Both the position numbers and the translations under genes were made by a program. Source: Psychromonas algarum (lineage in GTDB: Bacteria; Pseudomonadota; Gammaproteobacteria; Enterobacterales; Psychromonadaceae). From it: a DNA stretch of 64,000 nucleotides. Location of the stretch: positions 1-64,000 of the forward strand of contig NZ_SNUW01000009.1 of assembly GCF_004376845.1 (NCBI RefSeq). Direction: 5' to 3'. Below, piece by piece: positions 41,545-45,183 of this stretch (positions are counted from its first letter, which is position 1; the number at the start of each line of letters is the position of its first letter). The notes under the pieces are model-generated. The model was not told the origin of the DNA, made no database searches, and saw only the letters and a program-made list of their open reading frames with translations.

Positions 41545-42474
41545 ATGAAAAAAACATTATTATCAACTGCAATTCTAGCTGGCCTAGTTTCAGCAACTGC
41601 ACAAGCTGCAACAGTATATGACGCAGATGGTACATCATTAGATGTTGGCGGTCGTGTTGAAGTACGCGGTGACTTTTTAGGTAATGGCGGGGAAAAATTA
41701 GATGGCTCAATGCAAGATATGAGTCGTGCTCGTATTCATCTAGATGGTGAAACAGAAATCTCTGAAGGTTTAACTGGTTTTGGTTTTACAGAGGTTGAAT
41801 ATAAGCCGGATGGTGATTTTTCTACTCGTTATTTATTTGCGGGTTTAGGTACTCAACTTGGTGATTTTTCTTACGGTAAACAAGATACTGCCAACGTACA
41901 GATCTCTAACATGACGGATATTGCATCTGTTCACTCTGGTATTCAGCAAATTATTAATGGTGCATCTGATAAACAAAAAGGTGCATTCGTTTATTCTGAA
42001 GGATTTTTTGATGATGCGTTAGCAGTTAACCTTGATTACGTTACTTCAGATGCTGCTGATAGTGATTCATACGGTGCATCGGCTCTATATTCATTTGATT
42101 TTGGTTTAGATTTAGGTGGTTCTTACACTAATGCTGATAACGACCAAAACCAGGCTACTTTTGGTGCTGCTTACACTTTAAATGATTTGTATGTGGCTGT
42201 TACATATGCAATGGGTGATGCATCTAAGACTGAAGACTTTACTTCTTTAGAAGCGGCTGTTCAGTATCAATTTACTGAAAAATTCCGTTTAATTGGTATT
42301 TTAGGAAACCAAGATCTTGATGGTTCAAAGGCTAATGCGTATGCACTTGAAGCACAATATCGTTTCAACTCTGCACTTCGTACTTTTGTTTCTTATGCAT
42401 ATCTTGATCAAGATGAGATTGATCCTAACATAACTGAAGATTCGCTAGTAGCTGGTCTTCGTTACGACTTCTAA
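41545..42474 (+). CDS. Outer-membrane porin (gram-negative general porin family)
   Basis: The 309-residue product has a signal peptide cleaved after AQA (residue 21 or so). Alternating beta strands follow (RVEVRGDFLGNG, SRARIHLDGETE, GFGFTEVEYKP), and the C-terminus LVAGLRYDF ends in the aromatic Phe needed for barrel assembly. It is short for a 16-strand OmpC/OmpU porin (usually 330-370 residues) but of the same type. The 282-bp upstream gap holds no gene. A terminator follows. Confidence 0.85.
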   Translation: MKKTLLSTAILAGLVSATAQAATVYDADGTSLDVGGRVEVRGDFLGNGGEKLDGSMQDMSRARIHLDGETEISEGLTGFGFTEVEYKPDGDFSTRYLFAGLGTQLGDFSYGKQDTANVQISNMTDIASVHSGIQQIINGASDKQKGAFVYSEGFFDDALAVNLDYVTSDAADSDSYGASALYSFDFGLDLGGSYTNADNDQNQATFGAAYTLNDLYVAVTYAMGDASKTEDFTSLEAAVQYQFTEKFRLIGILGNQDLDGSKANAYALEAQYRFNSALRTFVSYAYLDQDEIDPNITEDSLVAGLRYDF

Positions 42475-42509
42475 ATATTAGATTAATAGTCGTTTAGTTA
42501 GTGTTTATA

Positions 42510-42535
42510 AATCCCAGCAATGCTGGGATTTTTTT
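42510..42535 (+). terminator. Terminator of the porin gene
   Basis: AATCCCAGC pairs with GCTGGGATT around a three-base loop and is followed by T residues. It lies 35 bp after the porin stop. Confidence 0.9.
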
Positions 42536-42673
42536 ATCTGATTGTTTATTTATATTTACTTCTCCATGTATTAATACCAATGGTATTTTTTGGTATAAAT
42601 TTGTTCAGTGTGTATAAAAACTATTCAATAAATTTAATGTCATCATTTTTATCATTATCTTCTATTGTTTATT

Positions 42674-42691
42674 TGTAAGAGATCGACCATT
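42674..42691 (+). promoter_or_regulatory. Conserved upstream box of csrB copy 1 (GacA/UvrY-type half site)
   Basis: TGTAAGAGATCGACCATT is repeated as TGTGAGAGATCGACCATT before the second RNA at an almost identical distance (about 162 bp before the conserved RNA start), while the DNA around it has diverged. The left half matches the GacA/UvrY box seen far upstream of csrB in E. coli (TGTGAGAGATC...). The right half does not match the expected CTTACA. Confidence 0.6.
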
Positions 42692-42837
42692 ACCTAATAG
42701 CGTCATTGTTCTTTTCTCTCTTTTTTTCTTATTTTATTGGATTTTATATTTACTGTAAGTTATTGTTTTAAAATGAATTGTTTTATTTTTGTTCGCTTTT
42801 TGTGAGTTGCAGCATAAATAAAGCAGCATAAAACTTT

Positions 42838-43251
42838 GCAAAAGCCGTAATATTGGTCTCGCAAACGGGGACGTGATTTACAGGATGTAAAACAAATAAC
42901 CTACTGTATTGTCAGGATGACAATTAGGATCTCTCAGGATGAGAGCTTATAAAACAGGATGTTTTATAATTTATGGATGAGTAGGACACTTCAGGATGAA
43001 GTTGTTAGTATCGACTAGGATTGTTGATATTAAGTCAGGATGACAAAAGAAGGACACCTCCTACGGATAGGGAGATGATGGATAGACAAGATGTTTATCT
43101 AATATGGATGTAACACGGATGAACCCGATGGAATGGGAAGTGGACGCCTAGATGGGCATAGTCAAATGGATGTATAGCAGGGAGCATCAACTATCACGGA
43201 TTAGATAGAGTGACTAAATTAGGGCAGCTTAGGCTGCCCTTTCCTGTTTTT
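42838..43251 (+). ncRNA. csrB: CsrB-family CsrA-sequestering RNA, copy 1
   Basis: This stretch of about 414 nt has no reading frame but contains 22 GGA motifs, most as AGGATG or GGAT. Many are presented in small hairpin loops: CTCTC-AGGAT-GAGAG, ATAAAAC-AGGAT-GTTTTAT, ACTTC-AGGAT-GAAGT and GTC-AGGAT-GAC. This is the architecture of CsrB/RsmZ RNAs, which bind many copies of the translational repressor CsrA and so relieve its targets. A weak -10 (CATAAA near 42828) precedes it and a strong terminator ends it. The exact 5' end is inferred from where identity with copy 2 begins. Confidence 0.9.
43221..43251 (+). terminator. Terminator of csrB copy 1
   Basis: An 8-bp GC-rich stem AGGGCAGC/GCTGCCCT with a TTAG loop is followed by TTCCTGTTTTT. 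It is identical in the second copy. Confidence 0.92.
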
Positions 43252-43513
43252 GGCGTTAGCCCCAATAATTTGAATCTAAGTTAATTAAAGAACTACCCTT
43301 AGCTAGCACTGCATGTAAATTATTATCTACTACTCCAATTACTCATATTAAATATTCTGCTTTTAATGGAATGGATTATTCTTTCTGCATGTCTTTTATT
43401 TATTAGTTTTTATTCTTTTTCTTCGTCTATAGCCCTACACAGTGCTGCTTTTTTGTCTTATTTTAAGATTATCTTCAATTTCATTAAATATTTTATAAAT
43501 AGCAATTTATTTT
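43252..43513. other. Spacer between the two csrB units
   Basis: This AT-rich stretch has no gene, RNA or repeat that I can recognise. It is not similar to the DNA before copy 1 apart from the conserved box that follows it. Confidence 0.5.
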
Positions 43514-43531
43514 TGTGAGAGATCGACCATT
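43514..43531 (+). promoter_or_regulatory. Conserved upstream box of csrB copy 2
   Basis: TGTGAGAGATCGACCATT differs from the box before copy 1 by one base. It lies 840 bp from that box, while the RNA genes are 841 bp apart, so spacing to the promoter is kept. Confidence 0.6.
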
Positions 43532-43678
43532 GCTCACTGGGGTTATAGCACTATCTTATCGTGAAATACCTTATTTTATTTTATGATATTGAATGTATCT
43601 CATTGTAATAAAAGTGTTTGTTTGTTTTTTAAGCAAATGAAAAGAGGGGATGGTGTATTTATATGCAATAAATATTTT

Positions 43679-44092
43679 GCAAAAGCCGTAATATTGGTCT
43701 CGCAAACGGGGACGTGATTTACAGGATGTAAAACAAATAACCTACTGTATTGTCAGGATGACAATTAGGACCTCTCAGGATGAGAGCTTATAAAACAGGA
43801 TGTTTTATAATTTATGGATGAGTAGGACACTTCAGGATGAAGTTGTTAGTATCGACTAGGATTGTTGATATTAAGTCAGGATGACAAAAGAAGGACACCT
43901 CCTACGGATAGGGAGATGATGGATAGACAAGATGTTTATCTAATATGGATGTAACACGGATGAACCCGATGGAATGGGAAGTGGACGCCTAGATGGGCAT
44001 AGTCAAATGGATGTATAGCAGGGAGCATCAACTATCACGGATTGGATAGAGTGACTAAATTAGGGCAGCTTAGGCTGCCCTTTCCTGTTTTT
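43679..44092 (+). ncRNA. csrB: CsrB-family CsrA-sequestering RNA, copy 2
   Basis: The sequence matches copy 1 over about 414 nt with two substitutions: AGGATCTC to AGGACCTC, and GGATTAGAT to GGATTGGAT near the 3' end. The latter adds a GGA, for 23 motifs. The hairpins and terminator are the same. The upstream -10 region (AATAAAT near 43669) differs from that of copy 1. Two or more CsrB paralogues are known in Vibrio relatives; here they are tandem and in the same direction. Confidence 0.9.
44062..44092 (+). terminator. Terminator of csrB copy 2
   Basis: It has the same AGGGCAGC-TTAG-GCTGCCCT stem and T-tract as copy 1. The 179 bp between it and the next gene hold nothing I recognise. Confidence 0.92.
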
Positions 44093-44271
44093 GGGATTTA
44101 GTTAATATCTTCAATCATATAATAGAAATCACAATAAATAACCCTCTTCTTCCTTGTTGTAAATTCCGTAAAGGAAACAGCCCTCTACATCAATTTGTGC
44201 TTTGAGCTACATTGTTTTATAAGCGTAAAATTTAGATAACTTATTACCGGTATAAACCTCTTTTAGCATTG

Positions 44272-45183
44272 TTACATTAACTGTTTCTGCAAACTTTTCT
44301 CTAATAAATCCCTTTCAAATTTAAAGCCTGCCTGTAGTAATTTTGTAGGGTGTACATTTGTACTTGATAATAATAACTCTTCCCCCATTTGCGAAAATAA
44401 CAGCTTTATAATGAACCTTGGTAAAGGTATCAAACAAGGGCGTTTTAAAATGTTAGCTAGTGTTGTAGAGAATTCTTTGTTACTGACAGGATGTGGTGAA
44501 ACTAAGTTAATTGGCCCACTTAAAGCGACGTGTTGCATGATAAATAAAATAGCGTTGAGTTGATCTTGCAGATCTATCCAACTCATTATCTGCTCACCGG
44601 TACCTATTTTACCGCCTAATCCTAGCTTAAAAGGAGTTAATATTTTTTCCAAAGCGCCGCCGTTTTTACTTAATACAATACCTGTACGTAAATTAACAAC
44701 TCGTGTTGTGCTTTGTTTAATTTGTTGAGTTATTTGTTCCCAGTGATCTGCTAAGTCACTTACAAACTGCTTGCCTTTTTTAGTATTCTCATTGACTTGC
44801 TGTTGTTTGCAATCACCATAAAACCCAATGGCAGAGGCGCAAATAAAAAGACTTGGAGGAGTTGTTGAGCGATTAATGTAATCAACTAATAGTTGTGTTG
44901 ATTGTAATCGACTTTTTATTATTTCTTGTTTTACTTCTTTTGTCCAACGAGACTTTACAATGTTTTCTCCAGCTAAGTGAATGATAATGTCTGGAAATGG
45001 AGCCCCATTTAGATGTATTTTTTGTTGTTGAATATTCCAATAAGGTGATGAGTTATTAACGCTACGAGATAAAGTATAAACGGAGTAACCTTGCTCCTCT
45101 AAAAAAGGTTTTAATGCACTACCAATTAAACCTGATGCACCGCTTATTAGTACATTAGTTTTTTTCTCTGTAGTTTGCCCCAT
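44272..45183 (-). CDS. TIGR01777-family NAD-dependent epimerase/dehydratase (YfcH/SulA-like)
   Basis: The 303-residue extended SDR-fold protein has the nucleotide-binding motif SGASGLIGSAL near residues 14-24. Conserved IIHLAGENIV and FICASAIGFYGD segments and a C-terminal DUF1731-like part (PFKLGLGGKIGTGEQIMSWI, then LLSSTNVHPTKLLQAGF) are also present. Members are often named YfcH; their substrate is unknown. It is a single leftward gene convergent with the csrB RNAs. Confidence 0.85.
   Translation of the reverse strand: MGQTTEKKTNVLISGASGLIGSALKPFLEEQGYSVYTLSRSVNNSSPYWNIQQQKIHLNGAPFPDIIIHLAGENIVKSRWTKEVKQEIIKSRLQSTQLLVDYINRSTTPPSLFICASAIGFYGDCKQQQVNENTKKGKQFVSDLADHWEQITQQIKQSTTRVVNLRTGIVLSKNGGALEKILTPFKLGLGGKIGTGEQIMSWIDLQDQLNAILFIMQHVALSGPINLVSPHPVSNKEFSTTLANILKRPCLIPLPRFIIKLLFSQMGEELLLSSTNVHPTKLLQAGFKFERDLLEKSLQKQLM

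Follow-up and report, generated by a model that had tools for sequence, protein, structure and literature searches.

In Shewanella, csrB1 and csrB2 (420 and 421 bp) lie in one neighbourhood with a putative UvrY box each, are under the control of BarA/UvrY and are expressed at different levels, according to the available portion of the source (PMC3171408). By implication of the same text, the two genes are adjacent in S. putrefaciens CN-32, and a transposase gene separates them in S. oneidensis (PMC3171408); gene conversion is not mentioned for this pair in that portion. As for Vibrio and Aliivibrio, the accessible text of a second study describes a csrB copy number that rises by duplication, with A. 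salmonicida csrB3 adjoining csrB2, copies that can differ in regulation, and a V. nigripulchritudo csrB2 that clusters with the csrB1 of its own species yet keeps the csrB2 synteny (PMC6262261). The latter could be a precedent for conversion, a process that the accessible text does not name, and the word "tandem" does not occur there. A further paper deals with duplication of rsmX in Pseudomonas (PMC7911923). Neighbouring csrB genes (Shewanella) and duplication combined with differential regulation (Vibrio) are, on these excerpts, already in print. At the promoter level, optimal binding of UvrY depends on IHF at csrB of E. coli but not at csrC, and the UvrY/SirA site of Salmonella csrC reads TGTGAGACATTGACCATT, both as given in the available text (PMC4682653). 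GGA counts of 22 (E. coli CsrB) and 25 (Pf1) are given in the part of PMC11882849 that was available, and no report on a CsrB of Psychromonas was found in the open-licence literature, as far as its accessible text extends.

The window analyzed in the current study, a stretch of 64,000 nucleotides from Psychromonas algarum, contains a gap between a porin gene and a gene for a TIGR01777-family oxidoreductase (Table 1). The initial annotation had reported that no reading frames exist between these genes, and the region 42475-44271 indeed lacks any open reading frame of at least 60 aa, with ATG, GTG and TTG all counted as starts. Within the gap, one unit occurs twice on the plus strand at an offset of 841, and the span 42674-44092 opens with the copy 1 activator box and closes where the Rfam match to copy 2 ends. 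Over the shared tract of 419 positions the copies differ at two only (42930 and 43203), the second of which gives copy 2 one extra GGA, and the likeness drops immediately beyond either end of the tract. From inferred start to terminator, each predicted RNA measures about 387-392 nt, so that the two units announced earlier are both present but somewhat shorter than the 414 nt or so assigned to them; likewise, their richness in GGA holds, with 23 and 24 motifs in place of the 22-23 first counted.

Table 1. Features of the tandem csrB locus and its flanking genes (positions within the window).
Feature	Position	Strand	Basis
Porin gene	41545-42474	+	Pfam Porin_4
UvrY/GacA-type upstream activator box, copy 1, TGTAAGAGATCGACCATT	42674..42691	+	Core match and recurrence across the genus
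IHF-like site, copy 1, AAACAATAACTTA, 1 mismatch	42756..42768	-	Genus-conserved position
Shared tract, copy 1 side	42835..43253	+	Ungapped comparison at offset 841
-10 box TAATAT, copy 1	42848..42853	+	Spacing from UvrY box
csrB copy 1, non-coding RNA, 23 GGA	42860..43251	+	RF00018; start inferred from -10 box
Intrinsic terminator, copy 1	43222..43251	+	GGGCAGCTTAGGCTGCCC, then TTTCCTGTTTTT
UvrY/GacA-type box, copy 2, TGTGAGAGATCGACCATT	43514..43531	+	As for copy 1
IHF place, copy 2, degraded, TTACAATGAGATA, 3 mismatches	43596..43608	-	Genus-conserved position
Shared tract, copy 2 side	43676..44094	+	Ungapped comparison at offset 841
-10 box TAATAT, copy 2	43689..43694	+	Sequence
csrB copy 2, non-coding RNA, 24 GGA	43701..44092	+	RF00018 match, fold and shuffles
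Intrinsic terminator, copy 2	44063..44092	+	Sequence
TIGR01777-family oxidoreductase gene with Epimerase domain	44272-45183	-	TIGR01777 and Pfam matches

Judged by their sequence, the two units are confirmed as csrB genes, sound but ordinary members of the CsrB family. Scanning of the whole window at Rfam gathering scores returned two matches, both to CsrB (RF00018) and each representing only the best overlap within its clan, so that related Csr/Rsm matches may be hidden. Copy 1 was matched at 42890-43251 with 71.1 bits, barely above the gathering score of 71, and copy 2 at 43731-44092 with 73.3 bits; the covariance-model check that had been proposed for this DNA was thus passed by both units, by copy 1 narrowly. 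In the predicted 387-nt RNAs, copy 1 has 23 GGA, compared with a mean of 13.8 and a maximum of 20 in 300 dinucleotide shuffles, and copy 2 has 24, compared with a mean of 14.2 and a maximum of 21 in as many shuffles. The minimum-energy fold leaves 13 GGA fully unpaired in each copy (shuffle means 3.3-3.4, maximum 8) and places 9 and 7 GGA in hairpin loops (shuffle maxima 4 and 5). The energies of the folds, -107.2 and -107.9 kcal/mol, are lower than those of every shuffle; the folds themselves differ between the near-identical copies, which makes any single fold unreliable. Six perfect hairpins with a GGA loop occur in copy 1 and the identical six strings in copy 2, which agrees with the earlier description of GGA motifs in the loops of small perfect hairpins. 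The strong terminator described at the same time was recovered as a GC hairpin (GGGCAGC-TTAG-GCTGCCC) followed by an interrupted T run, and its seven counted stem pairs show no variation among the 19 aligned sequences.

The structure of these RNAs was assessed on an alignment of 19 of the 32 copies found at mnmE loci of this and related genomes, using a structure drawn up by hand from the copy 1 hairpins and comprising 11 helices. Bases were paired in 97.9% of the helix cells, compared with 94.4% in shuffles, and 10 of the 65 tested pairs were changed on both sides (6.2 in shuffles). The cells changed on both sides numbered 51, against a shuffle mean of 16.5, and none of 500 shuffles reached as many; with the partner strand shifted by as many as three columns, 0-6 such cells were left, a comparison that is by itself biased toward the unshifted version because the structure was derived from the copy 1 hairpins. 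Further pair types showed no excess over shuffles in the same alignment (24 vs 25.7), and helix 9 was weak, with 76.3% of its cells paired. On the same 19 sequences RNAalifold recovered 10 of the 11 helices, and 12 of the 89 pairs that it proposed were compensated. Conservation across the alignment is strong in the GGA loops, in many of the stems and in the terminator, and the hairpin at RNA position 222 carries AGA in both window copies and GGA in some relatives.

The partners expected of a Csr circuit are encoded in the same genome (3.07 Mb, 38 contigs), which carries a single CsrA gene with a product of 59 aa, together with UvrY and BarA proteins that share 72% and 46% identity with their respective E. 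coli counterparts; all three score above the NCBIfam equivalog cut-offs. The genome-search match to UvrY spans one stop codon, and the list of open reading frames contains a complete frame of 214 aa with a GTG start. Moreover, the gene adjoining uvrY shares 56% identity with E. coli uvrC across 473 aligned positions, and uvrY and uvrC are neighbours in E. coli as well. A third, diverged csrB was found on another contig (C38); with the boundaries set in this analysis it is 455 nt long and has 31 GGA, and its score of 58.9 bits lies below the RF00018 cut-off. Taken together, the Rfam matches at gathering score and the presence of CsrA, UvrY and BarA bear out the CsrB-type design proposed initially, and from what is known of the family one may predict that the RNAs are transcribed, bind CsrA and influence motility, biofilm and carbon storage.

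The promoters of both copies share a fixed layout, in which the start of the UvrY-type box precedes the -10 box by 174-175 bp. The 12-base core of the box, GAGATCGACCAT, occurs exactly at three places in the 3.07-Mb genome (42679 and 43519 in the window, and contig C38), all of them upstream of a csrB. When one mismatch is tolerated, six places in the genome qualify, compared with nine for a reversed control, so that the core, being no commoner than the reversed pattern, is informative only as an exact match. A search in 24 Psychromonas genomes, allowing up to five substitutions from the consensus and requiring at least 14 GGA downstream, gave 52 box matches, of which four secondary ones were removed by hand to leave 48 boxes before GGA-rich DNA; three fetched loci without a box match (L044, L069 and L075) lie outside these 48. 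Positions 3, 6, 7, 9, 10, 12, 14 and 16 of the box are invariant in 48 of 48, a conservation that is partly built in by the substitution limit and the GGA requirement of the search. Box and -10 box are separated, start to start, by 173-177 bp in 44 of the 48 promoters and by 158-164 bp in four, and the -10 box of one locus (G023_L076) is doubtful. The idea that the GATC of the box is methylated by Dam was rejected, as the base concerned varies (C in 28 and T in 20 of the 48).

Among UvrY/SirA sites, the box is of the csrC type, which is less symmetric, and the boxes of two Psychromonas genomes (G002 and G011) are identical to the Salmonella csrC site quoted above. The possibility that an asymmetric box is new to Psychromonas was consequently discarded, since it matches the csrC-type site published in the available text of PMC4682653. 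A scan of named genomes detected the asymmetric box at 36 loci, 17 of them in Psychromonas; among the other 19 loci, 10 have at least 14 GGA at +170 to +620 (eight in Photobacterium, one in Pantoea and one in Agarivorans) and nine do not. The eight Photobacterium loci (L078, L089, L093, L098, L099, L101, L102 and L104) show 21-23 GGA per 450 nt from 170 nt past the UvrY-type box, and seven of the eight loci also carry Spot 42. No Csr family was matched at these loci at the Rfam gathering score, and the stretches are likely csrC-type RNAs missed by Rfam. In Pantoea anthophila (L083, 1374), the same type of box precedes a stretch with 14 GGA in the vicinity of Spot 42, which likewise had no Rfam Csr match at gathering score; in E. 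coli, this is the neighbourhood of csrC.

Between the box and the -10 box, a conserved place was scored against the IHF consensus. At this place the third csrB, on contig C38, has two mismatches, a value between those of the two window copies (Table 1). A perfect consensus was found in 14 of the 48 spacers (mean 1.5 and maximum 8 in 200 dinucleotide-shuffled sets), and at the fixed place and orientation 40 of the 48 promoters have 0-1 mismatch, compared with 2.5% of 761 control places, although neither figure is an independent count because the place was picked after a consensus scan and the 48 promoters are related. The place lies about 64 bp past the box, and about 52-54 bp past it in three of the shorter spacers. 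Considering the contrast between csrB and csrC of E. coli in the available text of PMC4682653, the sequences of copies 1 and 2 allow the fair prediction that they differ in IHF dependence.

The two copies are alike in their RNA bodies (99.5% identity) and far less so in their promoter spacers (58.3%) and in the 150 nt downstream (49.1%). The downstream value is near the shuffle mean of 48.7%, and the spacers are more alike than all of 500 single-base shuffles (mean 48.5%, maximum 55.8%), indicating that some shared ancestry or shared sites are left. Compared with the spacers of other species, those of the window are 50.3-61.8% identical, that is, as unlike as the window pair itself. Among the 496 pairs formed by 32 mnmE-locus copies, 469 have a spacer identity below 65%, and within this group body identity peaks in the window pair and the next value is 94.9%; this points to a recent gene conversion that would have made the RNA bodies near-identical while the promoters drifted apart. 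Tandem copies elsewhere in the genus are less homogenized, being 85.8-92.2% alike in one genome (G009) and 87.9% in another (G007).

Near-identical tandem units are also the expected outcome of a very recent duplication in which the second copy is young and the bodies are still alike, and one related genome (G020) offers an example, with copies 99.5% alike in body and 94.7% in spacer. However, a fresh duplicate would bring like spacers and flanks, which here are 58.3% and 49.1% identical, and the UvrY box has been kept 174-175 bp before the -10 box in both copies despite the diverged spacers; we therefore regard recent duplication as improbable. Extreme purifying selection might equally hold two bodies alike with no conversion, in keeping with the strong conservation described above for the 19 aligned sequences, but 10 copies from seven other genomes are 83.5-88.5% identical to the window bodies, so selection permits many changes and would be insufficient by itself, which makes this explanation quite improbable, even more so than duplication. 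That the units are not csrB genes at all but an unrelated repeat, for instance a mobile element or a GGA-rich degenerate coding sequence, could be imagined from two repeats of about 420 nt inside a gene-free gap; this is refuted by the CsrB covariance matches, the compensatory stems, the terminator, the promoter boxes and the conserved synteny, and its probability is negligible.

Variation across the genus places the window pair in a wider context. A csrB-like match to copy 1 was obtained in all 24 genus genomes searched, and CsrA in 23 of them, the exception being a genome that is 79% complete. Two genomes (G009 and G016) carry two CsrA genes each; 21 of the other 22 have one, and none was found in the remaining genome. 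In a wider set of 60 genomes, RF00018 was matched at E 0.001 in 35 and above the cut-off in 22, counts from which weak matches are lost through the filters. The mnmE gene and a TIGR01777-type gene lie on opposite sides of csrB in 15 of the 24 genus genomes, the present one included, and a porin was matched as well in 11 of those 15; the other nine show one flank, flanks on separate contigs, or neither within the stretch or contig that was fetched. The number of boxes per mnmE locus ranges from 1 to 3. In one genome (G011; L043 and L044), one contig starts about 65 nt past the end of one csrB and another starts inside a csrB, which suggests a near-identical tandem csrB pair that split the assembly.

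The number of GGA per RNA varies across the genus from 20 to 64 in 45 RNAs, the lengths being taken from 45 of the 48 promoters after three without a scripted terminator call (G013_L054_5711, G017_L065_2803 and G023_L076_2747) were left out. The type found at the third locus is represented by 11 copies, 10 of them beside the same neighbouring open reading frame, and ranges from 416 nt with 25 GGA (G006) up to 866 nt with 64 GGA (G019). The giant CsrB-type RNAs of G019 (866 nt, 64 GGA; L071 3182-3729) and G008 (786 nt, 58 GGA; L072 3547-4003) are tandem arrays of an 81-nt hairpin unit, in 6.7 and 5.5 copies with 93% and 92% matches, and the divergence among the units speaks against a simple assembly error. 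Matches to the Rfam CsrB model covered no more than pieces of the RNA in G019, and none was listed for that of G008. To our knowledge, no Csr RNA as long as 866 nt is known. In the open-licence literature, searched by titles and the starts of abstracts, no report of csrB gene conversion or of internally expanded Csr RNAs was found, a result that leaves their absence from print unproven. We lean toward the view that the CsrA-sponge capacity of Psychromonas evolves in three simultaneous ways, namely through tandem copy number at a single locus (1-3), through conversion that keeps tandem bodies identical as their promoters diverge in IHF dependence, and through duplication of the 81-nt module up to 866 nt and 64 GGA.

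Altogether, we consider it very probable that the window holds two tandem, separately promoted csrB genes of a three-gene set, driven by BarA/UvrY and sequestering CsrA, whose bodies were homogenized by recent conversion and whose promoters have diverged. Family membership, promoter layout, the presence of the partners and the pattern of divergence are read directly from the DNA, and they lead us to propose binding by UvrY, IHF and CsrA, transcription of both genes, and conversion as the cause of the likeness. BarA would phosphorylate UvrY, which would bind the 18-bp box far upstream of each csrB, and bending of the DNA, with the help of IHF at copy 1, would carry UvrY to a promoter with a good -10 box. 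The GGA-loop hairpins of each RNA may then bind and sequester CsrA, releasing its mRNA targets. Gene conversion between the copies would have homogenized the bodies as the promoter regions diverged, and the outcome would be one product under two differently wired promoters.

A third csrB gene, a fixed UvrY/IHF layout and near-identical bodies set against diverged promoters go beyond what the initial annotation had described. The conversion signature, the likely IHF split and the expanded relatives are likely to be the points of specialist interest, and they bear on why bacteria retain several near-identical CsrB-type RNAs. The two RNAs are near-identical, and their promoters have the UvrY box in common and are unlike at the IHF place, so that what promoter wiring contributes could be measured here free of differences in RNA sequence. 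Besides, the natural variants with 20 to 64 GGA per RNA are useful for determining how the size of the sponge sets the level of free CsrA. Both csrB genes of the window would be missed by a coding-only annotation.

Compared with the CsrB/RsmB family (RF00018), the window copies show the same covariance match, GGA hairpin loops, terminator and UvrY-type box about 180 bp upstream, and they depart from its typical members in forming a near-identical tandem pair with diverged promoters and in scoring barely over the cut-off. In relation to the csrB and csrC promoters of E. coli and Salmonella, as presented in the available text of PMC4682653, the window box is of the csrC type and is likewise placed near -180; unlike E. 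coli csrB and csrC, the window promoters, which differ at the IHF place, would drive almost the same RNA. The Vibrio and Aliivibrio copies described in the accessible text of PMC6262261 are generally nearer to their orthologues than to their paralogues, in contrast to the window pair. The Shewanella pair, likened here by its description in the available portion of the source, resembles the Psychromonas pair in consisting of two neighbouring csrB genes with UvrY-type boxes.
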